Source: a virus. From it: a stretch of 28,139 nt of DNA. Positions 10,983 to 26,352 of this stretch are shown piece after piece. Where the stretch lies: the IMG/VR virus record IMGVR_UViG_3300027687_000055, positions 1 through 28,139 of that record, one strand, 5' to 3'. How positions within the stretch are numbered: the stretch's first letter is position 1; each line of letters starts with the position of its first letter. A program made the position numbers and the translations under genes. The notes below the pieces were generated by a model. The model worked only from the letters and a program-made list of their open reading frames with translations, did not search any database and was not told where the DNA came from.

Positions 10983-12188
10983 ATGAAAAGGATAGCGATT
11001 ATCATGGGCCGAGGAATTGAAGGTTGCGGCGTAACAAAATTTACAATAGAGCAATGTAAATTCTATGAAAAACACGGGTATTCTTATAGTGTGTACGCAT
11101 CTAAAGATAAATCTTGGACACGAAAGAATGCACACAAAACTGACAACATCCATCAGCTAAAATTTGCTAAAGACGAAGAAGTGAATAGCATGATAGAAGA
11201 AGTGAATAAAGCAGATATTGCTATTATTAACTCTTTACCTGCAATGAGTTTAAAGGAAGAAGCGATTGAAAACTTTAAACGGATGTTAAGTGAAATAAAA
11301 ATACCAGTAGCGTTGATTCAGCATGACCACGCTATGCAATCTATTCGCCGTAATGGTGCGTTAGATGAAGCTATTCAAAAAGCTAATATTATATTTGTAC
11401 ATTCAACAACCAACGACTTTGCAAAGTACGCTGGTAATTTAGTTGGACCAAAGGTAGATTTGTTTGGTGCTGAAGAAGGAACGCCCATTGTAGCATTTCA
11501 GCCAGGAATGTATTTCGATGAGATAAAAGAAAAATATTGGAAAAACGGTTGTGATGATGAGCTACACCATAAGTGGATTGGTAGAACTACGTCATGGAAA
11601 GGTTATCAAGAAATGTTTAAATTTCATAATGGTTATTTAATGCCAAATGAAATGCTTACTACGTATGAAGGCATCGAACGTTCGCCTGCTTTCTTAGGTT
11701 TTAGAGAGCTATCTGAATTTGAAAATTTGCTTGCAGAAGACCCTAATGAATACGATTTGTCTGAATCTTATGGATCAAATGTTCAGGTATTTGGTCCATA
11801 CATTCAAGAAGAAATGCTTGAGAGAATGTCAAAGGTGGGCTTTGGCTATCAACTTTCTCGTATGAAAGAACACTTTATTCAACGATCAGTTGAGTATACG
11901 CACTGCGAAGTAGTATGCACTGGTACAATTCCTGTCTTTAATAAAAAGTACGGTGATGCTTGCACCCACCGTCACTATGGAAAAAAGTTTACTGATTGTG
12001 AAAACTCAGGAACAATCTGGTTTGATGAAAATAATTTTGATGAAACATTAAACCAAATGCTAGATCTTCGAGAGTCACCTGAAAAAAGAAATGAAATGAG
12101 GAATCAGGCCTACGAATTTTATAAACTACACCAAGATGCAGACTATACGTTTGCTGAAATAATGAAAAACATAGAAAACAAAATATGA
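10983..12188 (+). CDS. agt: DNA alpha-glucosyltransferase (T4 AGT-like)
   Basis: 401 aa, against 400 aa for T4 AGT, with the same block order: MGRGIEGCGVTKFTIEQ at the N-terminus (8-24), ASKDKSWTR, AIINSLPAMS, LIQHDHAMQSIRRN (111-124), WIGRTTSWKGYQEMFKFH (198-215), EGIERSPAF, EEMLERMSKVGFGYQLS (276-292), RSVEYTHCE with CTGTIPVF (301-319), and SGTIWFDENNFD. T4 AGT is a GT-B enzyme that moves glucose from UDP-glucose to 5-hydroxymethylcytosine in DNA with alpha linkage, shielding the DNA from restriction and from the phage's own cytosine-specific nucleases. A good SD (GGAAGG, spacing 7) precedes the ATG. No beta-glucosyltransferase is present here. With gene 42 upstream, the phage DNA is probably glucosylated hmC. 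Confidence 0.93.
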   Translation: MKRIAIIMGRGIEGCGVTKFTIEQCKFYEKHGYSYSVYASKDKSWTRKNAHKTDNIHQLKFAKDEEVNSMIEEVNKADIAIINSLPAMSLKEEAIENFKRMLSEIKIPVALIQHDHAMQSIRRNGALDEAIQKANIIFVHSTTNDFAKYAGNLVGPKVDLFGAEEGTPIVAFQPGMYFDEIKEKYWKNGCDDELHHKWIGRTTSWKGYQEMFKFHNGYLMPNEMLTTYEGIERSPAFLGFRELSEFENLLAEDPNEYDLSESYGSNVQVFGPYIQEEMLERMSKVGFGYQLSRMKEHFIQRSVEYTHCEVVCTGTIPVFNKKYGDACTHRHYGKKFTDCENSGTIWFDENNFDETLNQMLDLRESPEKRNEMRNQAYEFYKLHQDADYTFAEIMKNIENKI

Positions 12189-12406
12189 GTGCACACCTAA
12201 AAGGAATATTGAAAAAACTAGAAGGTCAACGAGACATCGAACTCGCTGATTTAAATACTTACTTGACAAACCAAGTAGCAATAGGCGAACACCCAGACAT
12301 TGGTGTTGAAATCGAACTAAAGATAGAAAAAGTCGACGCGTTAGATTCTAAAATAGAAACTATACAAAAATATTTTAACGATAGCCAAATGGACCTATTA
12401 GTATGA
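12185..12406 (+). CDS. Small conserved phage protein (73 aa)
   Basis: A helical small protein: GILKKLEGQRDIELADLNTY, then IGEHPDIGVEIELKIEKVD and LDSKIETIQKYFND. The heptad-like spacing suggests a coiled coil. I recall similar short proteins in marine T4-like phages but know no function. Start and stop overlap the neighbouring genes by 4 nt each (ATGA), linking agt to the methyltransferase-like gene in a single translational chain. Confidence 0.65.
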   Translation: MSAHLKGILKKLEGQRDIELADLNTYLTNQVAIGEHPDIGVEIELKIEKVDALDSKIETIQKYFNDSQMDLLV

Positions 12407-13593
12407 GTTATAGTTATGCATCAATAGTTCCTCTTATTGGAGGTGAAACAATCGCAATGGAGAATGTTTTTGGTAAAAGACCTAAGTACATTTTATCATA
12501 TACACCATTCGCAGCGAATGATTCACAGATGTTAGAACACTACAAAAACGAAGTACCATACCATGTCATCGACGAAGGTAGTGGTAGAACCGATTATGTT
12601 GATGTTGTGAATGCGGTGTGTCCATGTGCTGGTCTATCTTCGCTAAGTCCATCATCCTCTACAGACAACAAAGCAAATGATTGGATGGTTGAATCAGCAA
12701 AATATGTTTTAGGATCTGTAAAGCCTAAAGTCCTTTGGGGAGAAAACGCTCCAAGGCTTGCATCTAAAATGGGTGCACCTATTGTTGAAAAGCTAAGAAA
12801 GATCGCTAAAGAAAACGGCTATACCATGTCGTTATATAAGACAAAATCTAAATTGCACGGACTAAGTCAAACCCGCGATAGAGCATTCTATTTCTTTTGG
12901 CAAGGTAATCGTATTCCTCATATGCAGTTTTTCAAAAGACCTCACGAAAAGATTGAAGATACTATTCGGAATGCTTTTGTTTCTGCAGATGATCCAATGA
13001 ACGAGCTTACGAATAAAAATAAACCTTCAGATAATCCTTTCTATAAATACGTATTGGAAGAACTTGAAGGCGGAATTACGCACAAACAATTTCAAGAAAA
13101 GATCGAAAGGACAACGAATCCACTCGATTATTTAGAAAACCGCGGTATTGAATATGACGAAGTTTCTGAATGGATGGCACTGAACGGGTTTGACAAACAA
13201 GCTACACGCTGTTTAGAGATTCATAAGAAACTCAAATCTGGCGGTAACATCATGAGAAAAACTACAGAAATTCCAAAGGATTACATTGGTGCTTTTGTAG
13301 GACATATGCCTACATGTTTAACACACCCAGATGAAGATCGGTATCTTACAATTCGCGAATGCTTAGCAATTATGAAAATGCCTTCTGATTTTCAGCTTCA
13401 AGGAGGAAGAAAAAACCTAAATATGATATGTCAAAACGTGCCAGTAACTACTGCAGAAGACATGGCAAAGTCCATTCTAGACTGGCTTGGAGGCAATCTA
13501 GACACCAGAGAGGCTGATTTTGCAGTGTTTGACAATAAGGCATATACCGTAGATTATGAAGAGGCAGCACAGACCATTGAATCGTTCATTTAA
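12403..13593 (+). CDS. Dcm-like DNA cytosine C5-methyltransferase
   Basis: 396 aa. C5-methyltransferase motifs in order: I, VPLIGGETIAMENVFG (9-24) for AdoMet binding; IV, CPCAGLSSLSP with catalytic C75; VI, WGENAP with E114; VIII, QTRDRAFYF (156-164); a variable region (about 170-300) with no recognised target motif; then LTIRECLAIMKMP and NVPVTTAEDMAKSIL as IX/X. Motif IV has PCAG instead of PCQG. The nucleophile and Glu are kept, so catalysis on cytosine C5 is plausible. In a phage whose cytosines are apparently already substituted at C5, the substrate is unclear: host DNA, leftover cytosines, or an altered reaction. It overlaps its upstream neighbour and is followed by the uvsX promoter. 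Confidence 0.82.
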   Translation: MSYSYASIVPLIGGETIAMENVFGKRPKYILSYTPFAANDSQMLEHYKNEVPYHVIDEGSGRTDYVDVVNAVCPCAGLSSLSPSSSTDNKANDWMVESAKYVLGSVKPKVLWGENAPRLASKMGAPIVEKLRKIAKENGYTMSLYKTKSKLHGLSQTRDRAFYFFWQGNRIPHMQFFKRPHEKIEDTIRNAFVSADDPMNELTNKNKPSDNPFYKYVLEELEGGITHKQFQEKIERTTNPLDYLENRGIEYDEVSEWMALNGFDKQATRCLEIHKKLKSGGNIMRKTTEIPKDYIGAFVGHMPTCLTHPDEDRYLTIRECLAIMKMPSDFQLQGGRKNLNMICQNVPVTTAEDMAKSILDWLGGNLDTREADFAVFDNKAYTVDYEEAAQTIESFI

Positions 13594-16842: not shown

Positions 16843-16850
16843 TATAAATA
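16843..16850 (+). promoter_or_regulatory. T4-type late promoter box opening the internal-protein cassette
   Basis: TATAAATA in the gap after the SprT-like gene. The expected start near 16856 gives a 22-31 nt leader to the AAA+ gene. It is the first late box after the early replication genes and marks the switch to the capsid-protein cassette. Confidence 0.75.
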
Positions 16851-16886: not shown

Positions 16887-18431
16887 ATGCTAGACTTTAA
16901 AGAATACATCACAGAAGAACTATCTACAGGCACATTAGAAAAAGCTTCTAAAATTATTTTAAAATACCTTAGAAAAAAAACAAGCATTAAACAAATGTTT
17001 GCAACAGCAGGTTTAGAAAAATTTAAAAATTCAACTGGCGCAGGTTACGGCCTTAGGTATTATATACCAGGCAAAAAGATAGAATCCTTTAGAATAAATT
17101 GGACTAACAAAGGTAGTGCCAGTGCTAATAACCTATCTTCTATCGATTTGTGGAATGGGTCTACGCAAGGACCAACCTATCATATTTCATTCGAAAGAGA
17201 GATATCTTTGGTCCAAATACTTCCGCAATTAGCCGATATGCTAAAGAGTGGTAAAATCAAATCAGGCCCTTTTCAATCCTATCCAACTGATGTATCTCTT
17301 AAAGAAAGCGCTGAACATCAACTTCAGGCACTTAATGAAGCGGCGGTTGATCCTGAAGACGCTTATTCAAACGTGATAAGTTTAGTAAGCTCACCTGGGT
17401 TTACTAAACAAAAAGTATTTAAAGTTTGGAAGTCTGTTGGTATCAAAATTTTTGATGAATTAGAGGCGCAAAATCCTGCAATAATTAAAAAGGTTGGAAG
17501 ACAATATATTTGGAAAGGTTCTAAGAAAGATGTGAATAAACTACTTTCGCAGAAGTCAAATATCCTTGCAGCAATCGGAGTAGTAAATGGAAGTGTTAGA
17601 GGAGGAAGTAAAAAGGAAATTTATTCGCATGATCCTCAGCTAGATGAATTAGAAGCAAACCGTGAAAAACTTACGTACGATAAGCAACTTGCTGACCTTG
17701 AAAATCTAATTAAAATGACTGCATCTGGTGCATCTAATGCGCTCTTTATTGCAGGCCGAGGTGGTATTGGTAAAACATTTACTGTAGAAAAGGTTTTAAA
17801 AGAAATTGGTCTTGCGGATGGTAATGGTTACTTTAAAAACACTGGTACAGCATCTGCTGCTGGTATCTATTCACTTTTATTTAAGTATCAAAACGATATT
17901 GTCTTGTTTGATGATTCCGATGATGCATTAAAAGATCAGGAAGCACGTAACATGTTTAAAGCTGCTACTGATACGAAAAAGGTAAGGAAACTCGTATGGA
18001 ATAAAATGGGCAAAAACGTTGTTGAGCCTGACGAATACGAAGATCCACAAGAACTTATTGATGATGGGAAGATTCCGCGCTACTTTGAATTTACAGGTAA
18101 GATTATTTTCATCTCTAATTTGAAGATGGATAAGCTTGATCCTGATGGCGCAATACGTACTCGAGCATTTATGATTGAGATCGATCCAACAGATGTTGAA
18201 ATCTATGACTTTATGGAAAGCATCGTCGATAAGATTAAATTAGACGGTGATTTAAATTTAGATTCAGCAACTCGCAAAAAGACAGTTGACTTACTTCGAA
18301 AAGGAAAGTCATCTCAAACTGCGAATTTACGTAAACTTTCCCGAGCACTTAACATGCAAGCTGGAACAATACAATCAGGCGTAAATATTTCGGATGGTGA
18401 TTTAACACGGATGATCGAGACATATGCTTAA
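16887..18431 (+). CDS. AAA+ ATPase with capsid-targeting-like N-terminus
   Basis: 514 aa from ATG 16887; an ATG 9 nt upstream adds only MGI. The shorter start is preferred because MLDFKEYITE then reads as a 10-residue capsid-targeting peptide ending in ITE, as in T4 internal protein III, and because GGGAA just before it can serve as SD. A second possible cleavage motif, LNE followed by AA, occurs near residue 151. The ATPase core has Walker A GRGGIGKT (290-297), Walker B IVLFDDSDD (338-346), sensor-1-like FISN (N411) and an IRTR arginine pair (424, 426). The N-terminal 150 residues and the target are unknown. The gene overlaps its successor by 8 nt. A packaged ATPase acting at the start of infection is inferred. 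Confidence 0.8.
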   Translation: MLDFKEYITEELSTGTLEKASKIILKYLRKKTSIKQMFATAGLEKFKNSTGAGYGLRYYIPGKKIESFRINWTNKGSASANNLSSIDLWNGSTQGPTYHISFEREISLVQILPQLADMLKSGKIKSGPFQSYPTDVSLKESAEHQLQALNEAAVDPEDAYSNVISLVSSPGFTKQKVFKVWKSVGIKIFDELEAQNPAIIKKVGRQYIWKGSKKDVNKLLSQKSNILAAIGVVNGSVRGGSKKEIYSHDPQLDELEANREKLTYDKQLADLENLIKMTASGASNALFIAGRGGIGKTFTVEKVLKEIGLADGNGYFKNTGTASAAGIYSLLFKYQNDIVLFDDSDDALKDQEARNMFKAATDTKKVRKLVWNKMGKNVVEPDEYEDPQELIDDGKIPRYFEFTGKIIFISNLKMDKLDPDGAIRTRAFMIEIDPTDVEIYDFMESIVDKIKLDGDLNLDSATRKKTVDLLRKGKSSQTANLRKLSRALNMQAGTIQSGVNISDGDLTRMIETYA

Positions 18432-19803
18432 TTTAAAATCTTTTCATATCTTTCTGGACGAAGGTACTAACCTAGGCTCAGGAGAATTAGGAAAACCTAA
18501 TTCTAAAACAGGCGAAGCGCGCACTGACATACTTCGTAAACTAATACAAGCTAAAAAGCCACTTGAACTTGTAAAAGGTGGTTCAATTGTTGTAGCAGAT
18601 ATTGACGCTGCAATGAAAGCAATTGATCAATACGAAATTGATAGTAGTATATTTGCGGTGTTAGACGCTAAAGGCAATTCGATAAAAATTACAGAATTGA
18701 AAAAGTCTGCGCCATTTGGTGGAGGAGGATCTGGTGCGGGTGGAGGAACTCTGCAAACGGCTATAGCAGAATCTGCACAGTGTGTATGGTGTGTTGCAAT
18801 GCTTGATTTGGGAGTATCAACACCTATTGATGATTTTACGGACGAAGTTTTATCAAAAGCGTTTAAAAAGGTCGATGTTGGTAAAACATCTCTTAAAGAA
18901 ATTTTAGAAATTGACGATGCATGGAAAAATAGTTCGTATCTTTCTTCGCAGCTTTTAATTAAAGAAGGTTATATCAAAAGAGGAATGGTATTTCACCGTG
19001 ATTCTAAATTGATGAAATCAATATATGCTGCTAAAGACACCGCGTTTAAGAATAATGACTTTCCAAAATTTACTGATGATAAATGGAACCCAGGAGATAT
19101 TTGGGCAGTAGGTTCTAACTTCAATGTTAAGTCTTTAAATACTGCAACGGTTCGTGGATTACAAAAGTCTATATTAGAAAATTTTGTAAACCGTGAGTGC
19201 GTTGCTATTTCATTAAAGAAAGTAAATAAGACCGCGAAATCGAAACAACTAAATGTTGAACTTCCGCCTGATACAGATGACTATAAGGTTTTAAAATCTG
19301 CCGCTAAATCGATAAAATCAGGCCGTGGTGATATATGGTCTTCAAAAGGTGGAACTATTCAATACGATGACGGCTACCTTATGGTTAAAGACAATAGCGC
19401 TTATGGATCTATTAAAGCAGAAATTGCAGGAAAAACTGCCCGCGGCGGAGGTGTTGGTTGGGGTTATATAAAAGATTCTGCTAAACAAACACTCAGTGTC
19501 GTTCTTCCAGAAATTAAAACAATCGCAAGAGCTGCAAAGAAAATTGCAAAAGGCGATAAGAAAGAATCTGAAAAAATGTTTAAGCTAATGGAAAAGGTTG
19601 AAGGAATAACACAAGATGATTTCGATAAAAACATACAAACTAAAAAAGGTGACTGGATCCACGCAAAATTAGGAACTCTTTATTTTATTGAAGCGGTCGA
19701 AAGATTTGGCGGTAAAAAGACTAATCGGTGGATAACCAAATTAATTAATTACGCAGGAAGTAAGACTGAAGACTCTTCAGCATATGTTAAAATTTATGAG
19801 TAA
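18424..19803 (+). CDS. Putative internal protein, nuclease-like pattern
   Basis: 459 aa. It begins with MLNLKSFHIFLDE, a capsid-targeting-like leader ending in LDE. A helical region to about residue 90 is followed by a Gly-rich linker (98-108). The main domain has AIAESAQCVWCVAML with E116, DDKWNPGDIWAVGS with D225, and ECVAISLKKVNK with K265. The order Glu, PGD, (x)LK resembles PD-(D/E)XK restriction-like nucleases, with Ser in place of the second acid; I suggest this only as a hypothesis. The C-terminal part is basic. It overlaps both neighbours by 8 nt within a translationally coupled late cassette. No membrane segments are present. Confidence 0.7.
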   Translation: MLNLKSFHIFLDEGTNLGSGELGKPNSKTGEARTDILRKLIQAKKPLELVKGGSIVVADIDAAMKAIDQYEIDSSIFAVLDAKGNSIKITELKKSAPFGGGGSGAGGGTLQTAIAESAQCVWCVAMLDLGVSTPIDDFTDEVLSKAFKKVDVGKTSLKEILEIDDAWKNSSYLSSQLLIKEGYIKRGMVFHRDSKLMKSIYAAKDTAFKNNDFPKFTDDKWNPGDIWAVGSNFNVKSLNTATVRGLQKSILENFVNRECVAISLKKVNKTAKSKQLNVELPPDTDDYKVLKSAAKSIKSGRGDIWSSKGGTIQYDDGYLMVKDNSAYGSIKAEIAGKTARGGGVGWGYIKDSAKQTLSVVLPEIKTIARAAKKIAKGDKKESEKMFKLMEKVEGITQDDFDKNIQTKKGDWIHAKLGTLYFIEAVERFGGKKTNRWITKLINYAGSKTEDSSAYVKIYE

Positions 19804-20323
19804 CGTATTAGAAGCAGCATTAGCATTTCATAACGATAACCAAATACCATTGGCTCATAATGTTTTCCGCCCTCATTCTGAAAACTACTATAAGCTGTTC
19901 TCCTATGCACGGAATTTAAAAGAGTCAATTCAATTAACAGAGTTTGATGAGTATTTACTTTCAACTGACATTGGCGAATTTGGATTACACGAAGGTGAAG
20001 AAGTACCTTTAGATCACCCTTTCATTAATGAAGCTGCAGAATACAAAGGTAAAGAGGTTAAATTAAACGACCCTAAGCGTGGAGGTAAAAAGAAATTTTA
20101 TGTTTATGTTAAAAACGATAAAGGTAACGTAATCAAAGTTCAATTCGGAGATACATCAGGTTTATCTGCAAAGATAAATAACCTTGCAGCGAGAAAATCA
20201 TTTGCAGCACGTCACAAGTGTGCTGCTAAAAAAGATAAAACAAAACCAGGCTATTGGTCTTGCAATCTTCCTAGATATGCAAAAGAGCTTGGACTAAAAG
20301 GTGGAGGAAACTTTTTCTGGTAA
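19796..20323 (+). CDS. DUF5872-like phage protein with processing site
   Basis: 175 aa from ATG 19796, overlapping the previous stop by 8 nt (an ATG 12 nt upstream is also in frame). The N-terminal 80 residues are not recognised. Then DHPFINE and AAEYKGKEVKLNDPKRGGKKKFYVYVKN, followed by VIKVQFGD and RKSFAARHKC ... YWSCNLPRYA, form a compact domain I know from many phage virion-associated proteins (DUF5872-like). The (I)NE/A junction lies directly before the domain, where a gp21-type prohead protease would cut. The conserved Cys/His/Trp could bind a metal. Function unknown; virion association is inferred. Confidence 0.75.
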   Translation: MSNVLEAALAFHNDNQIPLAHNVFRPHSENYYKLFSYARNLKESIQLTEFDEYLLSTDIGEFGLHEGEEVPLDHPFINEAAEYKGKEVKLNDPKRGGKKKFYVYVKNDKGNVIKVQFGDTSGLSAKINNLAARKSFAARHKCAAKKDKTKPGYWSCNLPRYAKELGLKGGGNFFW

Positions 20324-21840
20324 TGAGTAAACCGTATATAGATAAGTACACAGATAGAAGTACTCGAATAAGAACTTTCAATCATTTGCTTGAGTCCGAC
20401 GAATTAGTTTGGCACAGAGATTTAAAAGATAGAACCGTAAAGGTTATTGAAGGTAACGATTGGTATTTCCAAATGGATAACGAAATTCCTAAACTAATGG
20501 AAAAAGGAGTTGAGATGTTTATTCCTAGAATGGAATATCATAGAATTTATAAAACAGGCGACAGCGATTTAGTATTAGAAATAAAAGAACCTTCTATAAA
20601 ATCCTTTAGTTCTTATGTAGAAATTTCAGAAGCTGCAAAGGCCGGAAAAAACGTACATATGACACACATCGAAGACCGCGTTATTTACGGTGGTGTAAAA
20701 GGATCCCGCGATGCTATAATGGCTCTTCGATCATTGAGAGATATGTTAAGCGGTTCATCTTCGAAAAACACAGATGTTACAGTAAAATGGGATGGAGCAC
20801 CTGCAGTATTTGCTGGTGTAGATCCTTCAGACGGTGAATTCTTTGTTGCAAAAAAAGGTATATTCAATAAAGAACCTAAGGTTTACAAAAACCACGCTGA
20901 CATCGAAGCAGATACAAGTGGTGATCTATCTACTAAATTGAAAGTAGCGTTTGACGAATTAAAAGATTTAGGCATTAAAGATGTTATACAAGGTGACATT
21001 ATGTTTACAAAGGGCGATGTAAATAGTGAATCTATCGACGGTGAAAAATATATCACGTTTCAGCCAAACACGATTGTTTATGCGATTCCTGCAAATGCTG
21101 ATTTAGCAAAACAAATTTTAAAGGCGAATCTTGGCGTGGTGTTTCATACCACTTATAAGGGCAATTCTTTCGAAAACATGAAAGCTTCTTACGGAGTAAA
21201 CCTTGGAGGTCTAAAACAAAAATCCACCATTTGGTATCAAGACGCTAATTATAGAGATGTGTCAGGGACAGCAACGTTGACAAACCAAGACACCGCTGAA
21301 GTAACCTCATCACTTTCGAAAGCAGGAAAAATATTTCAAAAAATAAAAGGAACTACTCTAAGAGAACTTGAAAACAACATTGATTTAGCTATAAAGATTG
21401 AGACATTCAACAATACACTGGTAAGAAAAGGCGAAAGAATTACTAATACAAAATCGCACGTCAAAAACCTATTAAAATGGTTTGATAACAAATTTGCGAA
21501 AGAAAAAGATAAGCGTTCAAGCGAAAAAGGTAAAGCGGCGATTGATGCTAAAAAAGAAGAGTTACTTAAGTTCTTTTCATCAGAAAATAAGAAAAACCTT
21601 GAACTTATGTTTGAGCTTATGAACGCTATCGTGGACGCCAAATTACTTATTATAAATAAACTAGATAAGGTAAAAAGTATTGACACCTTTGTAAGAACTA
21701 AAAATGGATTTAAAGTTACAGGATCAGAAGGATTTGTCGCAATAGACAAAACAACAAATGGTGCGGTAAAGTTAGTAGACCGCATGGAATTTTCAACAAA
21801 CAATTTTTCAAAAGACGTAATAAAGGGATGGGAAAGATAA
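20323..21840 (+). CDS. Fusion: small T4-like protein plus KxDG ligase-like domain
   Basis: 505 aa. Residues 1-89 (TRIRTFNHLLESDELVWHRD, VKVIEGNDWYFQMDN, IPRMEYHRIYKTG) match a small protein usually free-standing in marine T4-like phages. Residues 92-103 (IKSFSSYVEISE) look like the capsid-targeting start of a second protein, with Ile where Met would be. Next come HMTHIEDRVIYGGVKG, VTVKWDGAPAVFAG with K155 of the nucleotidyltransferase KxDG motif, FFVAKKG, and VIQGDIMF in the place of ligase motif III. Lys155 could take AMP or GMP, as in RNA/DNA ligases and capping enzymes. The C-terminal half is helical and Lys-rich. No ATG exists at the junction. It starts one base inside the previous stop. 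Confidence 0.78.
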   Translation: MSKPYIDKYTDRSTRIRTFNHLLESDELVWHRDLKDRTVKVIEGNDWYFQMDNEIPKLMEKGVEMFIPRMEYHRIYKTGDSDLVLEIKEPSIKSFSSYVEISEAAKAGKNVHMTHIEDRVIYGGVKGSRDAIMALRSLRDMLSGSSSKNTDVTVKWDGAPAVFAGVDPSDGEFFVAKKGIFNKEPKVYKNHADIEADTSGDLSTKLKVAFDELKDLGIKDVIQGDIMFTKGDVNSESIDGEKYITFQPNTIVYAIPANADLAKQILKANLGVVFHTTYKGNSFENMKASYGVNLGGLKQKSTIWYQDANYRDVSGTATLTNQDTAEVTSSLSKAGKIFQKIKGTTLRELENNIDLAIKIETFNNTLVRKGERITNTKSHVKNLLKWFDNKFAKEKDKRSSEKGKAAIDAKKEELLKFFSSENKKNLELMFELMNAIVDAKLLIINKLDKVKSIDTFVRTKNGFKVTGSEGFVAIDKTTNGAVKLVDRMEFSTNNFSKDVIKGWER

Positions 21841-22187
21841 CACAACTATTGTCTGAAGCGAAAACCAGAAAAGAAATTTCTGGATATATAGACATGGAAG
21901 ATCCTCAGACAAAAAAGACTCCTGAGAATCCTGCTATAGTGATACTAGGCATTGGGAAACTTGACTATAACACGCTTAAGAAGGATGTTGAATCTAAAAC
22001 AAAGGATTTGCTTAAGTTCGCTAAAAGAGGTGATTTCAAATTTCTCTATAAACAAATGGGAAAAATAGACGACTATAGCGCACTTCAAGAATCGCCATAC
22101 CAAGCGTATATAAGGACCTTAATTCAGGTTGAAGAAAAAATGGCGAGTGGTCCGTATAAAGCAAAAATCACCAACGCAAAACGATAA
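21828..22187 (+). CDS. Hypothetical protein with capsid-targeting-like N-terminus
   Basis: 119 aa. It starts with MGKITQLLSE followed by AK, a 10-residue leader ending in LSE that fits the T4 prohead-protease consensus (L/I)xE. The rest has PENPAIVILGIGKLDYNTLKKD, a helical KTKDLLKFAKRGDFKFLYKQMG and IRTLIQVEEKMASGP. No catalytic motif is seen. The start lies 13 nt inside the previous gene, so it is coupled to the ligase-like protein. A 7-of-8 late-box match (GATAAATA, 22183-22190) overlaps its 3' end. Confidence 0.68.
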   Translation: MGKITQLLSEAKTRKEISGYIDMEDPQTKKTPENPAIVILGIGKLDYNTLKKDVESKTKDLLKFAKRGDFKFLYKQMGKIDDYSALQESPYQAYIRTLIQVEEKMASGPYKAKITNAKR

Positions 22188-22192
22188 ATACG

Positions 22193-23470
22193 ATGAAGTC
22201 ATTTAAACAATTTAACGATGCAAAGGTTTCAGAAGCTGTTTTTACGTTTGGAAGATTTAATCCACCTACTATAGGGCATGGTAAACTTCTATCAAAAGTC
22301 GCTAAAGTCGCTAAAGGTAGTAACTATAGAATTTACGCTTCGCAAAGCAACGACAAAGATAAAAACCCATTAGAGTATCGCGAAAAAATAAAAGTAATGC
22401 GTAAGATGTTTCCTAATCATGGTAGAAACATCATTGAAGATATAAAAGCAAAGACAGTCTTTCACATTGCTACTGCTCTTTACGATCAGGGATTTACAAA
22501 AATCAAAATGGTTGTAGGATCTGATCGGGTATCTGAATTTCAAAAGTTGCTTAATAAGTACAATGACGTAAAAGGTAAACACGGATTTTATAATTTTGTA
22601 GATGGTATAGAAGTTATATCTGCAGGTGAAAGAGATCCAGACGCTGAAGGTGTTAAAGGAATGAGTGCATCTAAAATGCGCAAAGCGGCCGAAGAAGGAG
22701 ATTTTAAATCGTTTAGCTTAGGATTAACTAAAGCGTATGGAGAAGATATGACGCTGTTTAATCTTATTCGTAAAAGAATGGGTCTGAAAGAAAAAACAAG
22801 TTTTAGAGAACACATTCAATTGCCACCTCTATCCGATAAAAGGGAAAGGTACATAGCTGAAGAAATATTTAATATAGGTGATACTGCGTTTTTCAATAAT
22901 CAACCCGTGGTTATTAAACATAGAAAGTCTAACTTTGTTATTGGCGAAGATAGCAAAAAGTATTTCATTCATTCACTTGCGATCACGTCACTTGAAGAAA
23001 AGTTAAATCCTACTTACGGAAAAGGTCTTTCGAAATCGACTAAATCGAAACGACAAGCACAGTTTAATAAGCAAGCTAAATTAGACGATGACGATCCAAA
23101 GGCGTACAATCCAGCGCCAGGTGACGCAAGAGCGAAGACTAAAGTTTCGAAACATACCCTCGCTTATCGTAAAAAGTTTGGAGAGTTTGTAGAAATAGGT
23201 AAGGCGGCCGCCGATCATAAAAAAGATACACCTGGCCAAATTGACGAAAAGCAAATTGCTGGATTGAAAAAGAAAGCAGAAAAATCTGGTATAGCTTATG
23301 GCATATTAAAGCAAGTATTTGACCGCGGAATGGCTGCTTGGAAAACTGGTCACCGCCCAGGAGCAACACCTCACCAATGGGCATTTGCTAGAGTTAATTC
23401 CTTTATTACTAAAAGTAAAGGTACATGGGGTGGAGCAGACAAAGACTTAGCAGCAAAGGTCAGAGGATGA
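22193..23470 (+). CDS. NMN adenylyltransferase-like nucleotidyltransferase with C-terminal phage domain
   Basis: 425 aa. Leader MKSFKQFNDAKVSE, then directly AVFTFGRFNPPTIGHGKLL, the HxGH-type nucleotidyltransferase motif, followed by KMVVGSDRV and GMSASKMRKAAEEGDF, which matches the ISSTxxR-like second motif. Residues up to about 200 thus form an NMNAT/cytidylyltransferase-type domain transferring a nucleotidyl group, possibly ATP to NMN to form NAD. A middle Lys-rich linker includes DDPKAYNPAPGDARAKTK. The C-terminal domain (GLKKKAEKSGIAYGILKQVF, GMAAWKTGHRPGATPHQWA, ARVNSF, KGTWGGAD) is a recurrent phage domain (DUF5824-like). VSE/A just before the catalytic strand is a plausible cut site. 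Nucleotide specificity is not known. Confidence 0.83.
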   Translation: MKSFKQFNDAKVSEAVFTFGRFNPPTIGHGKLLSKVAKVAKGSNYRIYASQSNDKDKNPLEYREKIKVMRKMFPNHGRNIIEDIKAKTVFHIATALYDQGFTKIKMVVGSDRVSEFQKLLNKYNDVKGKHGFYNFVDGIEVISAGERDPDAEGVKGMSASKMRKAAEEGDFKSFSLGLTKAYGEDMTLFNLIRKRMGLKEKTSFREHIQLPPLSDKRERYIAEEIFNIGDTAFFNNQPVVIKHRKSNFVIGEDSKKYFIHSLAITSLEEKLNPTYGKGLSKSTKSKRQAQFNKQAKLDDDDPKAYNPAPGDARAKTKVSKHTLAYRKKFGEFVEIGKAAADHKKDTPGQIDEKQIAGLKKKAEKSGIAYGILKQVFDRGMAAWKTGHRPGATPHQWAFARVNSFITKSKGTWGGADKDLAAKVRG

Positions 23471-23703
23471 TATCGTTTAAAGAATACGCTGAAGGAACTG
23501 GTAAAAGCGAAACATGGGAAGATGGTTTCGAAAGACGCGTTGTTAAAACCACTAAACCAGATCATTTGGAAAAAGGATTCAAATGGCGCATTAAAGGTAA
23601 AGATCGCAACGAAATATCAATTAAACTGTATAAAACAAAACCAGATTTTGAAGAATACAAAAAACAAATGAAAAGAGTTGCAGGCCATGAATTTGGAAGG
23701 TGA
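23467..23703 (+). CDS. Small basic protein with capsid-targeting-like N-terminus
   Basis: 78 aa from ATG 23467 (ATGA overlap with the previous stop); the frame is open upstream but an ATG at 23425 would lie deep in the preceding gene. The N-terminus MISFKEYAEGTGKSE resembles the capsid-targeting leaders of its neighbours, though YAE is a weaker cleavage motif. The rest, DGFERRVVKTTKPDHLEKGF and WRIKGKDRNEISIKLY, is basic and beta-like and ends in an amphipathic helix. Probable small internal protein; function unknown. Confidence 0.68.
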   Translation: MISFKEYAEGTGKSETWEDGFERRVVKTTKPDHLEKGFKWRIKGKDRNEISIKLYKTKPDFEEYKKQMKRVAGHEFGR

Positions 23704-23709
23704 CATTAT

Positions 23710-23717
23710 TATAAATA
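23710..23717 (+). promoter_or_regulatory. T4-type late promoter box
   Basis: TATAAATA 7 nt after a stop codon. The expected start near 23723 leaves about 8 nt to the first ATG (23731) and 17 nt to the second (23740), favouring the second, which has GGGAA upstream. Confidence 0.75.
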
Positions 23718-23739
23718 GAATAACAACCTTATGGGAACT

Positions 23740-25035
23740 ATGAACATTTCAGAAATCAATCAAAAAAAATTATCGCTACTTGACGTAAGCCAGCTAACGG
23801 CGTTCCTTAATATTTTTAAAGGTGTGTCTAATCCAAAGGCCAGGCAGATTGTAAAAGATCTCACCCGCGAGCTTGGTACACGTAAGACAGAAGCAGTCGA
23901 AGAAGCTTCTGTTAAAGACATTATTAAGTCAGTAAAAGCTGCAACTAAAAAGATTGGCGGAATTATTGATAAAGTCATGGATGATGCCGAATTTCAAAAG
24001 GCTTACGCCAAATATATCGATAATCCTAATGATAAGAATAGGTTAAAGAAGATTCAAGACTATACAAATGGTATGATTGGCGATACGTTCGAATCAGCTC
24101 GTTTAAAAGAAGAACGCATTAAAGAGATATGTTCAATAGTACTTGGTGAAGATTTTGATCAAGACTTTATTTATGAAGATGCAGACTTTAGTAAACCTTC
24201 TATTATTAAAGAAGCGTACAAAAAATTTATAGACGAAAATCGCGCGATTGTTAACAATCCAAAAGGTATCAAAAGGTTTATTAAACAAGCAGAGAAAAAG
24301 TTTCCTCAGTATAAAGGTGAAATTGAACAACTTGAAGATGACGAAATTATTTTTCCAAACGATCCTAAACTAATTAACTTTTTTAAAGGTGCGCGAGAAG
24401 TCAAGTTTGTTCTTAAGGATTCTGTTGATCTTGAAGAAGCGAAAAAAGTAATTGCTTCAGTCGAATTGTGGAATGGCAAAAAAATGAAAAAGTCTTTTAA
24501 GGACCAATCAGCCGCAGAAAAGTTTATAAAGAAAACACAAGACGAAGAAGACGTTCGTGGATACAATATGTATGCAGAAGGTCTTGAAGAAGCAGTTAAA
24601 TTTTGGACAGTAACTATTACTAAGAAAGCTGGTAAACTCTTTAAAGGACAAACAGTTGACGTAAAAGCGCGCAACTCAGCTGAAGCTATTAAGAAAGGGA
24701 TTAAGCAAATGAAAGGTAATCCCGCACTAGTTCCAGGCGATAGTGTAGATGCGGTACTAGGAGAATCAATTGAAGAATCTAATAAAGATAAGTATATGTG
24801 GGGTGACATTAATAAGGCGTTGTCAAGTGCTGGTTTAAATCCTCGTATTATCATGAATGTTCTATCTAAACTTAAAGGTAAGGCGCTAAAAGAATCAAGA
24901 ACAGTTGACCTTGAAAAGGCCAACGTATTAACTTATGACGAGTATGATGAAGTTCAAAACTTCAAAAACTTTAATAAGAAAGACTGGAAACGCAATGCTA
25001 TCCAAAAGAAATACATCAGAAAGAACAAAGTATAA
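23740..25035 (+). CDS. Large late protein, likely head-internal or scaffold-related
   Basis: 431 aa from ATG 23740 (434 from 23731). No enzymatic motif. The composition is highly charged and helical, Lys/Glu rich, like T4 prohead core proteins. Possible prohead-protease sites (L/I)xE before small residues recur: VDLEE/A, GLEE/A and SIEE/S. A segment FWTVTITKKAGKLFKGQTVD with KARNSAEAIKKGIKQMKGN forms a small beta-alpha unit I recall from other phage internal proteins. The C-terminus is YDEYDEVQNFKNFNKKDW followed by basic residues. It begins a transcription unit with a late promoter and the ATGGGAACTATG start pattern. Role inferred from composition and context. Confidence 0.7.
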   Translation: MNISEINQKKLSLLDVSQLTAFLNIFKGVSNPKARQIVKDLTRELGTRKTEAVEEASVKDIIKSVKAATKKIGGIIDKVMDDAEFQKAYAKYIDNPNDKNRLKKIQDYTNGMIGDTFESARLKEERIKEICSIVLGEDFDQDFIYEDADFSKPSIIKEAYKKFIDENRAIVNNPKGIKRFIKQAEKKFPQYKGEIEQLEDDEIIFPNDPKLINFFKGAREVKFVLKDSVDLEEAKKVIASVELWNGKKMKKSFKDQSAAEKFIKKTQDEEDVRGYNMYAEGLEEAVKFWTVTITKKAGKLFKGQTVDVKARNSAEAIKKGIKQMKGNPALVPGDSVDAVLGESIEESNKDKYMWGDINKALSSAGLNPRIIMNVLSKLKGKALKESRTVDLEKANVLTYDEYDEVQNFKNFNKKDWKRNAIQKKYIRKNKV

Positions 25036-25060
25036 TACTCAACCAAATACAATGGGAAAT

Positions 25061-25363
25061 ATGAATTCGAACGAACGAACACGTCTAGATAGAATTGAAG
25101 AAAAGATCGATAAGATGGCAGATGCTATCATCGCTTTGGCACGGGCTGAAGAAAAGATCACGACTTTAGATGATACTACTAGAATAATTTTAAAACGAAT
25201 GGTTGCTCAAGATGATCGTCTGAGAAATGTCGAACAGCTTCAAGCAGATACTGAAGGAACCTTAAAAACAATTAAATCTATCACTTGGACGTTTGTCTCA
25301 GCTGTTGTCACTGGTCTTGCCGGTGCAGTACTATGGATGATAGGATTACCTGCAGGAGATTAA
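25061..25363 (+). CDS. Coiled-coil plus C-terminal membrane-anchor protein (XhlA-like layout)
   Basis: 100 aa from ATG 25061; an ATG 9 nt upstream (ATGGGAAATATG) is also in frame, and the frame is open further upstream to 24935 inside the previous gene. The body ERTRLDRIEEKIDKMADAII, TTLDDTTRIILKRM and DDRLRNVEQLQAD is a heptad-like coiled coil. Near the C-terminus SITWTFVSAVVTGLAGAVL is one transmembrane helix, then a short GLPAGD tail. This layout is that of XhlA-type haemolysin/holin-associated proteins, so a lysis or membrane role is possible. Its stop overlaps the next ATG (TAATG). Confidence 0.7.
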   Translation: MNSNERTRLDRIEEKIDKMADAIIALARAEEKITTLDDTTRIILKRMVAQDDRLRNVEQLQADTEGTLKTIKSITWTFVSAVVTGLAGAVLWMIGLPAGD

Positions 25364-25743
25364 TGAAAACATTCGCGCAATATTTAATTGAGAAGCCAAT
25401 GTCACCTCAACAGAGGATGCAACGAGCTAGGATAATGAAAAGACTTGCTCCTAAGCTTGCGATGAAACGTAAAATCGCAATGAAGAAAAAAGCACCTACT
25501 GAAAAGCTTTTACAGAGGGCTGAAAAACAAGCCAAAGATATTTTAAGAAAGAAATTTTCTGGAAAGGCCGAATACAACCAAATGAGTTTTGCTCAAAAAA
25601 GTCAGGTTGATAAAAAGGTTGAAAAGAAAAAAGCTCTCATTAAAAAAATTGGAAAAAAACTTTTGCCTAAACTCAAAAAAGCAGAAACTGAAAGAATTAA
25701 GGCACTTAAACAAGAAACCGCGGCCACACACCGCAAAATATAA
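25363..25743 (+). CDS. Highly basic internal protein with T4 IPIII-like leader
   Basis: 126 aa from ATG 25363, which overlaps the previous stop and has AGGAG upstream. The leader MKTFAQYLIE differs from the T4 IPIII capsid-targeting peptide (MKTYQEFIAE) only by substitutions at four positions and ends in LIE, a gp21-type cut site. The mature part is extremely Lys/Arg rich: MQRARIMKRLAPKLAMKRK, KAPTEKLLQRAEKQAKDIL, SQVDKKVEKKKALIKKIGKK. I recall this family in many marine T4-like phages as virion or structural protein. A DNA-bound internal protein packaged with, and possibly ejected with, the genome is the best inference. Confidence 0.8.
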   Translation: MKTFAQYLIEKPMSPQQRMQRARIMKRLAPKLAMKRKIAMKKKAPTEKLLQRAEKQAKDILRKKFSGKAEYNQMSFAQKSQVDKKVEKKKALIKKIGKKLLPKLKKAETERIKALKQETAATHRKI

Positions 25744-25755
25744 TAAGGAATAAAT

Positions 25756-26352
25756 ATGGAACTACAAGATACAATAACGCAGTCTGTGGCCGAAGCTGTC
25801 AAACAAGTCACGCACACAGCGAAGGATTTCAAACCTCATATGATGTATGATCCAAAAACGGGTAAAGGCTATGAAGCAAAAACCCATGAGGATCATCTAA
25901 AAATGAAAGACATGGGTTATACTCATGAAAAGCCAACTTCACAAGAAGAAAGTAACGAATTTACTGCAGCTGCTGCTAAAGCTAAACTTGCTGGCGATGA
26001 TGAATTTGAATTTGATGGCAAGACTTATCCAACAGAAATTAGTCAAGATGCCGCTGAAAAGATTCTTGGAAAAAAAGAAGAAGTAGAGCTCGAAGAAGCT
26101 TCAACTGATCTTGAAGAAGCACTTAAGCCTGACGATTTCGTAAAAGGTGGAGATGCTAAAATAACAAAACGTGAAGTTGATAAAATGTTATCGAAGATAT
26201 TCGTAAACGCTAAAATGGCAAAGACTGTTGAAAATAATGGTGCTTATAAGGCTGGACTAAAAGATGCAGGCAAAAAGAAAAATCCTTATGCAAAAGATAC
26301 CGCCGATTTCCATCTCTACGTTTTAGGAGTTCAGTCGGCTGACCTATCTTAA
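25756..26352 (+). CDS. Putative head-internal or scaffold-like protein
   Basis: 198 aa with a fair SD (AAGGAA, spacing 5). N-terminal helix, then DFKPHMMYDPKTGKGYEAKT and DHLKMKDMGYTHEKP, then NEFTAAAAKAKLAGDDEFEF with DGKTYPTEISQDAAEKILG. The latter two blocks recur in phage head-associated proteins. Between domains are VELEE/AS and DLEE/AL, two (L)xE/A sites spaced like prohead-protease cuts. The C-terminal region (DDFVKGGDAKITKREVDKML) is a separate helical unit. Function unknown; a precursor cut into pieces during head maturation is plausible. It is the last gene before a new late promoter. Confidence 0.7.
   Translation: MELQDTITQSVAEAVKQVTHTAKDFKPHMMYDPKTGKGYEAKTHEDHLKMKDMGYTHEKPTSQEESNEFTAAAAKAKLAGDDEFEFDGKTYPTEISQDAAEKILGKKEEVELEEASTDLEEALKPDDFVKGGDAKITKREVDKMLSKIFVNAKMAKTVENNGAYKAGLKDAGKKKNPYAKDTADFHLYVLGVQSADLS

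Follow-up and report, generated by a model that had tools for sequence, protein, structure and literature searches.

Introduction

Beside its core proteins, the head of bacteriophage T4 holds three small internal proteins (IPI, IPII and IPIII) and Alt, as tabulated in a review (PMC9026906). In the same review the internal proteins are described as basic in nature, and residues 4 and 7 of IPIII are assigned to targeting and residues 8 and 10 to processing. Here we describe N-terminal leaders of comparable design in a 28,139-base virus fragment (IMG/VR record IMGVR_UViG_3300027687_000055, positions 1 to 28,139; hereafter the window), which belongs to a marine T4-like phage whose relatives include Pelagibacter phage HTVC008M and Methylophilales phage Melnitz. 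The leaders occur in a region at 16887-26352 and share with IPI, IPII, IPIII and Alt an N-terminal length of 10-19 residues, hydrophobic residues at 4 and 7 and (L/I)xE at 8-10; genes for gp21 and gp22 are present in relatives. Unlike the T4 internal proteins and Alt, the cargo in the window consists of other enzymes, the leader is also found inside fusion proteins at domain joints, and its cleavage is a prediction.

Two further systems invite comparison. The NMNAT-like virion proteins of Synechococcus phages belong to the same nucleotidyltransferase family as a protein of the window and share its leader design, although the cleavage site of the window copy is less certain than theirs. The ejection proteins of the giant phage SPN3US are described as likewise numerous, being packaged in the head and processed there by a protease (PMC10052503), but SPN3US is not Kyanoviridae-like and is likened here by description only. 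The phrase 'capsid targeting' appears nowhere in the virion papers on the cyanophages S-SCSM1, S-SZBM1, S-CREM2 and S-SM1, two of which also lack the terms 'propeptide' and 'N-terminal', and a search of the open-licence literature, partly by title and the start of the abstract, found no paper linking a capsid-targeting tag with cyanophage enzymes.

By analogy with T4, and judging by motif, spacing, conservation and the virions of relatives, we class the locus as a T4-type capsid-targeting system, one whose set of enzymes is unusually large. What is new here is the size and kind of that set, the use of the leader as a portable element and its survival at fusion joints. We consider it likely, with good confidence, that the leaders are T4-type capsid-targeting sequences, that a gp21-like protease cleaves them in the head and that the proteins probably enter the host with the DNA. 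Docking onto the prohead scaffold core would fall to residues 4 and 7 (Phe and Phe/Tyr), the gp21-like protease would cut after (L/I)xE and free the mature protein within the head, and the mature protein would probably leave the head for the host alongside the DNA. A single address tag would serve unrelated cargo: an NrdC.10-like ATPase, a phrog_1462 protein, an RNA-ligase-like DUF6267 protein, an NMNAT-like protein and small basic proteins.

Results and Discussion

T4-type leaders in the window

The original prediction, made from the letters of the window, named six leader-bearing N-termini. All are present, at 16887, 18424, 21828, 22193, 23467 and 25363, and the three exact 10-mers closing in (L/I)xE are found among them; the T4 leader quoted for comparison was also right, since MKTYQEFIAE opens IPII and IPIII in the T4 record. 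The genes, leaders and promoter elements of the region described below all lie on the plus strand. The canonical (L/I)xE end is found in the AAA protein (16887..18431; leader MLDFKEYITE, 16887..16916), the phrog_1462 protein (18424..19803; leader MLNLKSFHIFLDE, 18424..18462), a basic protein of 119 residues (21828..22187, isoelectric point (pI) 9.5; leader MGKITQLLSE, 21828..21857) and a small, very basic protein (25363..25743, pI 10.8; leader MKTFAQYLIE, 25363..25392), the last being nearest in character to the T4 internal proteins.

The leaders of the AAA, small basic and 119-residue proteins match T4 IPIII or Alt at the targeting and processing places, and that of the 119-residue protein resembles the Alt leader MELITELFDE. 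Counted back from the final Glu, the AAA, phrog_1462 and basic proteins have an aromatic residue at -6 and -3 and Leu or Ile at -2, as do IPII and IPIII; counted from the start, the phrog_1462 leader shows the hydrophobic 4/7 pattern with three extra residues. In the predicted structure of the phrog_1462 protein, residues 1-14 have a predicted local distance difference test score (pLDDT) below 50. The NMNAT-like protein (22193..23470) and a protein of 78 residues (23467..23703; leader MISFKEYAEG) carry the targeting half only and lack a canonical (L/I)xE site. The NMNAT-like leader MKSFKQFNDAKVSE (22193..22234) has two Phe residues, at 4 and 7, and beyond a gap a possible cut site, a layout like that of the longer T4 IPI start MKTFKEFTSTTTPVSTITE.

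A rule drawn from the T4 IPII/IPIII and Alt leaders, permitting Phe, Tyr or Ile and Phe, Tyr or Leu at the two targeting places, matches 4 of the 38 genes in the window set, where 0.17 would be expected (P 3e-5; 38,000 shuffled N-termini). The four are the AAA, phrog_1462, 119-residue and basic proteins, all inside the named region, and three of them (AAA, basic and 119-residue) have the exact T4 spacing (null rate 0.0005, P 9e-7). Scored with a profile from which its own family had been left out, the AAA leader stands alone (0 of 11,400 shuffles equally good), as does that of the basic protein (P 0.00009); the leaders of the phrog_1462 (0.13), 119-residue (0.17), 78-residue (0.044) and NMNAT-like (0.066) proteins do not stand out. 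An open reading frame scan of the window and its relatives found 152 leader starts among 4394 segments, 150 of them on the plus (cassette) strand; 144 fall into seven clusters, five large and two small, and eight are single. The strand contrast, and not the list of families found, serves as the control, because the scan profile was trained on these families and the list is not independent. The per-column information of the trained profile was set aside as circular, the 7-mers having been picked by pattern, and anchor-based entropies were used in its place.

Conservation of the leaders

Conservation was counted over distinct N-termini in the best 80 of 576 IMG/VR contigs with relatives, excluding L082, L083 and, in every family but DUF6267, rows starting more than 12 codons from the expected start. 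The full motif is present in all eight distinct N-termini of the AAA protein, one of which is identical to that of the window. It is found in 15 of 20 for the phrog_1462 protein and 17 of 22 for the basic protein, with the targeting half in 19 of 20 and 21 of 22, respectively. The NMNAT-like family keeps the targeting half in 37 of 40, and the 78-residue family in 6 of 12, with a full motif (for example MISFKEYLSE) in 3 of 12. For the 119-residue protein, the 10-mer is kept in one of nine distinct N-termini and the targeting half in none. Three other genes of the region are not leader-bearing at their N-termini, the targeting half being found in 0 of 7 for the 431-residue gene, 1 of 19 for the 198-residue gene and 2 of 23 for the 175-residue gene.

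The basic family was resolved column by column, with 18 distinct leaders aligned solely by the sequence that follows the leader. Entropy is low in columns 4, 7, 8 and 10 (0.31, 0.96, 0.31 and 0.00 bits) and higher in the drifting columns 2, 3, 5, 6 and 9 (1.25-2.28 bits); column 11, mostly Lys, is also conserved (0.61 bits). The conserved positions within the leader are the four that are important in T4. Support for this protein rests on its IMG/VR relatives, because the phage collection gave no match at E 0.01.

The expectation that homologues would keep their leaders stands for the AAA, phrog_1462 and basic proteins; it holds mainly for the targeting half in the NMNAT-like and 78-residue proteins and fails for the 119-residue protein, whose leader is not kept as an aromatic 10-mer. 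Predicted head targeting of the AAA, phrog_1462 and basic proteins is well supported by leader conservation.

Virion proteins of related cyanophages

Head targeting of the NMNAT-like and phrog_1462 families is well supported by published mass spectrometry of cyanophage virions. NMNAT-like (cytidylyltransferase) proteins are reported from the virions of S-SCSM1 (ORF91; PMC9602691), S-SZBM1 (ORF140; PMC9146016), S-CREM2 (ORF154; PMC10665884) and S-SM1 (T4-GC190; PMC3037559). These four proteomes were picked by searching for reports of such a protein; S-CBWM1, a non-T4 phage said to have one, was kept outside the comparison. All four proteins begin with leaders, MKSFLQFLKE in S-SCSM1, MRFRQFIIE in S-SZBM1, MKNFSSFLTE in S-CREM2 and MKKFSAFLNE in S-SM1, and among relatives of the S-SM1 protein a leader is present in all 80 loci kept of 126, in seven distinct versions. 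In S-SCSM1 the consecutive genes SSCSM1_89 to 93 are flagged as virion proteins in the record, and SSCSM1_90 is a phrog_1462 member (E 3.9e-66).

In S-CREM2, virion proteins with a leader include a SAM (S-adenosylmethionine) hydrolase that matches the S-adenosylmethionine lyase family, a kinase that matches the kinase family below the Pfam cut-off, a Cas9-annotated protein with its leader at residues 19-25 and no Pfam match, and two hypothetical proteins. Leader scores of at least 6 were obtained for 6 of 51 detected and 2 of 165 undetected S-CREM2 proteins (P 0.0026), a set that includes a weak gene at 128342 and omits the Cas9-annotated protein (score 5.5, its leader starting at residue 19). 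Pooled over three proteomes, leader score is associated with virion detection (P 0.003). These scans covered 216 of 219 coding sequences (CDS) in S-CREM2, with 51 of the 52 proteins of the virion table (ORF132 left out), 215 of 218 CDS in S-SZBM1 and 281 of 282 CDS in S-SCSM1, where the tail tube gene, a virion protein, was left out; the S-SCSM1 record flags 48 virion proteins (47 scanned), against 45 in the text of the paper. The introduction of the S-CREM2 paper states that S-CRM01 virions hold a kinase (PMC10665884), and in S-CRM01 the kinase (MISFDQFLSE) and some of its neighbours carry leaders.

Two side observations concern these cyanophages. The gene annotated as Cas9/Csn1 in S-CREM2 (L095:7704-10313) shares an N-terminal SRWSxW with similarly placed genes of S-H34 (L189:4716-6944, cut at its 3' end) and S-B68 (L190:4638-6389), followed in the three genes by FASFMAE or FSSF(L/I)xE near residues 19-26; the comparison covered the N-termini. 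S-SZBM1 (122311-122628) and S-SCSM1 (44215-44535) both encode a small, conserved cyanophage protein whose leader-bearing N-terminus reads MK(S/T)FK(S/Q)F(L/M)SESVNISGDFNGNLY.

Leaders at the joints of fusion proteins

Two sites escaped the original prediction because they are internal: IKSFSSYVEISE, at the joint between a cupin-like N-domain and DUF6267, and INE↓A in the 175-residue gene. The fusion protein (20323..21840; PF19782 E 6e-102) carries IKSFSSYVEISE at residues 92-103 (20596..20631), beginning at codon 92, and codons 65 and 70 are the closest in-frame starts that precede it. Cupin_2 matches the N-domain of all five fused relatives and a separate Melnitz gene, in every case below the Pfam cut-off, and gives no match to the N-domain of the window protein itself. 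This N-domain (window 20323-20595) resembles a separate 89-residue gene of Melnitz-2 that stands just downstream of the NMNAT-like gene of that phage.

The window and its relatives yielded 50 uncut DUF6267 proteins whose joints differ from one another. Eleven are cupin fusions; the joint holds a canonical leader in ten of them and a leader with two additional residues in the window protein. In six others DUF6267 follows a domain resembling that of the 175-residue protein, and the joint reads ILE or LLE every time; five of them open with MKSFIEH(L/I)(S/N)E, which is leader-like with His at 7, and the sixth opens otherwise. The remaining 33 are fused to neither domain, and 20 of these have canonical leaders, seven have leaders with a two-residue insertion and six have hydrophobic-x-E only. 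The share of joints with hydrophobic-x-E is given without a chance control. In the 175-residue gene (19796..20323), which has no N-terminal leader, INE↓A (residues 77-80) precedes a domain which, in some relatives, begins with a leader-like sequence of its own. The pattern at the joints fits the expectation for gp21 cleavage at domain boundaries. Where cargo domains have fused, the joint may keep the tag or a potential cleavage site, and gp21 could therefore split the fusion.

Processing machinery and points against head targeting

Genes for gp21, gp22 and gp23 are present in HTVC008M and Melnitz-2, and gp21 was found in the two longest of the ten relatives' contigs searched. In T4, gp23 is cut at a hydrophobic-x-E site near its N-terminus. 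Six relatives have hydrophobic-x-E at the matching place near the N-terminus of gp23 (LGE, LSE, LTE, LTE, ISE and LAE); the sequence of a seventh contained no gp23.

Several observations weigh against the proposal that the leaders direct cargo into the head for cleavage. The window contains no gp21 gene; since the record is a 28,139-base fragment, the head genes of its phage are out of view. In the NMNAT-like family the full motif is found in 10 of 40 distinct N-termini, and the triplets after F..F/Y are commonly NEE, SEE or NED (33 of 71 rows) and not (L/I)xE. The virion phrog_1462 member of S-SCSM1 opens with MATVAETLLALNE, a weak leader. Leader scores of at least 6 show no association with detection in S-SZBM1 (1 of 30 detected against 4 of 185 undetected) or S-SCSM1 (1 of 47 against 2 of 234), and the small conserved leader protein is absent from the virion lists of both phages. 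By inspection, S-SZBM1, S-SM1 and S-CRM01 have leaderless DUF6267-like proteins; that of S-SZBM1 is not in the S-SZBM1 virion list. The canonical leader is absent from two of three further kinases (S-H34 and S-B68). An earlier virion study of S-PM2, as cited in the S-SM1 paper, did not detect the cytidylyltransferase of that phage (PMC3037559). On balance, packaging of the tagged proteins into the head of the window phage is probable; that the leaders target and are cleaved in this phage, and that the cargo reaches the host, we infer.

Alternative explanations

The tagged proteins could enter the prohead to build or condense it and be unneeded as host enzymes, so that packaging would be real and delivery incidental. 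A head-assembly role has been suggested for T4 IPIII (review, PMC9026906), and the pI lies between 8.9 and 10.8 for nine of the ten proteins of the leader region that were scored. The signature motifs kept in the NMNAT-like and ligase-like domains, the GxGGIGKT loop of the AAA protein and the family matches of the S-CREM2 SAM hydrolase and, below cut-off, kinase speak against it; we regard this explanation as unlikely, though deserving of some weight. It is improbable that the virion detections reflect carry-over of abundant cytoplasmic proteins, with the leaders playing no part in packaging. The S-SCSM1 (PMC9602691) and S-CREM2 (PMC10665884) papers themselves raise carry-over, and the association of leader with virion is absent in two of the three proteomes; yet reports of the NMNAT-like family come from four separate preparations, and four of the six non-structural S-CREM2 proteins named by the authors, all except two endolysins, bear the leader.

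About as little probability attaches to the idea that the leader binds another target, such as the host membrane, a polymerase or a tail part, and resembles the T4 sequence by convergence. The shared motifs are only short and hydrophobic, and in relatives of the 119-residue protein the N-termini are longer and lack the aromatic pair. Set against this are spacing and conserved positions equal to those of T4, the hydrophobic-x-E near the N-terminus of gp23 in relatives and the reports of tagged proteins from virions purified on caesium chloride (CsCl). That the leaders arose by chance or composition, AT-rich phage genes often beginning MKxF, is very improbable indeed: the leave-family-out scores of the phrog_1462, 119-residue and NMNAT-like proteins do lie within the range of shuffles, but shuffles that keep composition fall far short of the four matches seen, the scan matches lie almost wholly on the cassette strand, and for the AAA, basic and phrog_1462 proteins conservation already contradicts it.

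Putative cargo proteins

The AAA protein (phrog_1250, E 1.6e-27) consists of the leader, an N-domain of about 240 residues and a C-terminal ATPase half that matches T4 NrdC.10 (blastp E 7e-17, 28% identity over 184 columns). T4 NrdC.10 itself has no leader and is annotated only as hypothetical. The NMNAT-like protein (phrog_3041, E 1.7e-88) contains GRFNPPTIGH, which fits the (H/T)xGH motif, scores 27.1 bits against PF01467 (cut-off 21) and has a C-terminal DUF5824 (65.3 bits); it gave no match to PDB sequences at E 0.1. These features mark it as a nucleotidyltransferase.

Across 30 aligned DUF6267 members, K64-W-D-G67, E378-G379, V381 and K392-L393 are invariant, which we take to be the ligase nucleotidyltransferase motifs KxDG, EGxV and VKL. 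With VIA-align, the DUF6267 model (pLDDT 72) gave Z 6.6 to RNA editing ligase 1 (root-mean-square deviation (rmsd) 3.2, 115 aligned), below the tool's safe level, and Z 6.3 to T4 Rnl2 (rmsd 3.2, 100 aligned). Five further RNA-ligase entries scored Z 5.2-5.5, and unrelated helical matches reached Z 7.3. All seven RNA-ligase alignments of the sheet domain begin at model residues 60-63, beside K64. Foldseek returned nothing for the model at E 0.001, and a search of the family profile against PDB sequences found no ligase. The structural match to an RNA-ligase fold is modest. In T4, NrdC.10 adjoins NrdC.11, annotated as a nucleotidyltransferase, and the NrdC.10-like gene of the window likewise lies near nucleotidyltransferases. 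Kinship of DUF6267 with NrdC.11 was considered and rejected, the likeness not being significant.

The nuclease reading of the phrog_1462 protein (phrog_1462, E 1.1e-37) comes from a PGD...SLK motif only; DpnII-MboI was matched at E 0.14 in one of 20 members, and fold searches against the PDB gave no usable match. Pfam and PHROG searches found no family for the 119-residue protein. As for the enzyme labels first proposed, those of the AAA (NrdC.10-like) and NMNAT-like (PF01467) proteins are borne out, the ligase-like label has gained some structural support and the nuclease-like label remains a motif reading.

Defence by cutting transfer RNA (tRNA) can be undone by RNA ligases. Restoration of nicotinamide adenine dinucleotide (NAD) against NAD-depleting defence is described as a phage strategy (PMC12774641). 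Tentatively, and at somewhat less than an even chance, marine T4-like phages (Kyanoviridae and kin) may carry a head-borne repair and take-over kit of RNA-ligase-like, NMNAT-like, ATPase and nuclease-like proteins and, in cyanophages, SAM lyase, kinase and Cas9-annotated proteins, all addressed by one portable leader. In such a kit gp21 would free the cargo and split fusions, and RNA-ligase and NAD-making enzymes could blunt tRNA-cutting and NAD-depleting defences before phage genes are read. Should whole sets of enzymes in marine T4-like phages share this tag, the proteins that these phages inject could be predicted more easily from a simple N-terminal rule. Such tagging would also explain the recurrence of NMNAT-like proteins in cyanophage virions and provide many candidates for host take-over, along with natural leaders by which proteins could be loaded into phage heads.

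Layout of the region and other genes

In the window, a block of T4-type replication genes (clamp loader, RegA, gp43 polymerase, UvsX and gp41 helicase) precedes the leader region. The order from the gp41 helicase to a similar cassette is the same in HTVC008M and Melnitz-2, and the gene order is matched in outline in S-SCSM1, S-SZBM1 and S-SM1; the NMNAT-like gene of S-CREM2, unlike these, is located elsewhere. A T4-type late promoter element, TATAAATA, stands ahead of the cassette at 16843..16850, 36 nucleotides upstream of the AAA start, and a second at 23710..23717 precedes the 431-residue gene and the basic protein. The window holds 11 such sites against 3.0 expected, several of the others not being ahead of the leader cassette. 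The region had been described as one late-promoter cassette; with TATAAATA at 16843 and again at 23710, it is probably two units. Within the replication block there are also a cytosine-methyltransferase-like gene (12403-13593; phrog_116) and a gene whose sequence reads like that of a glycosyltransferase (10983-12188).

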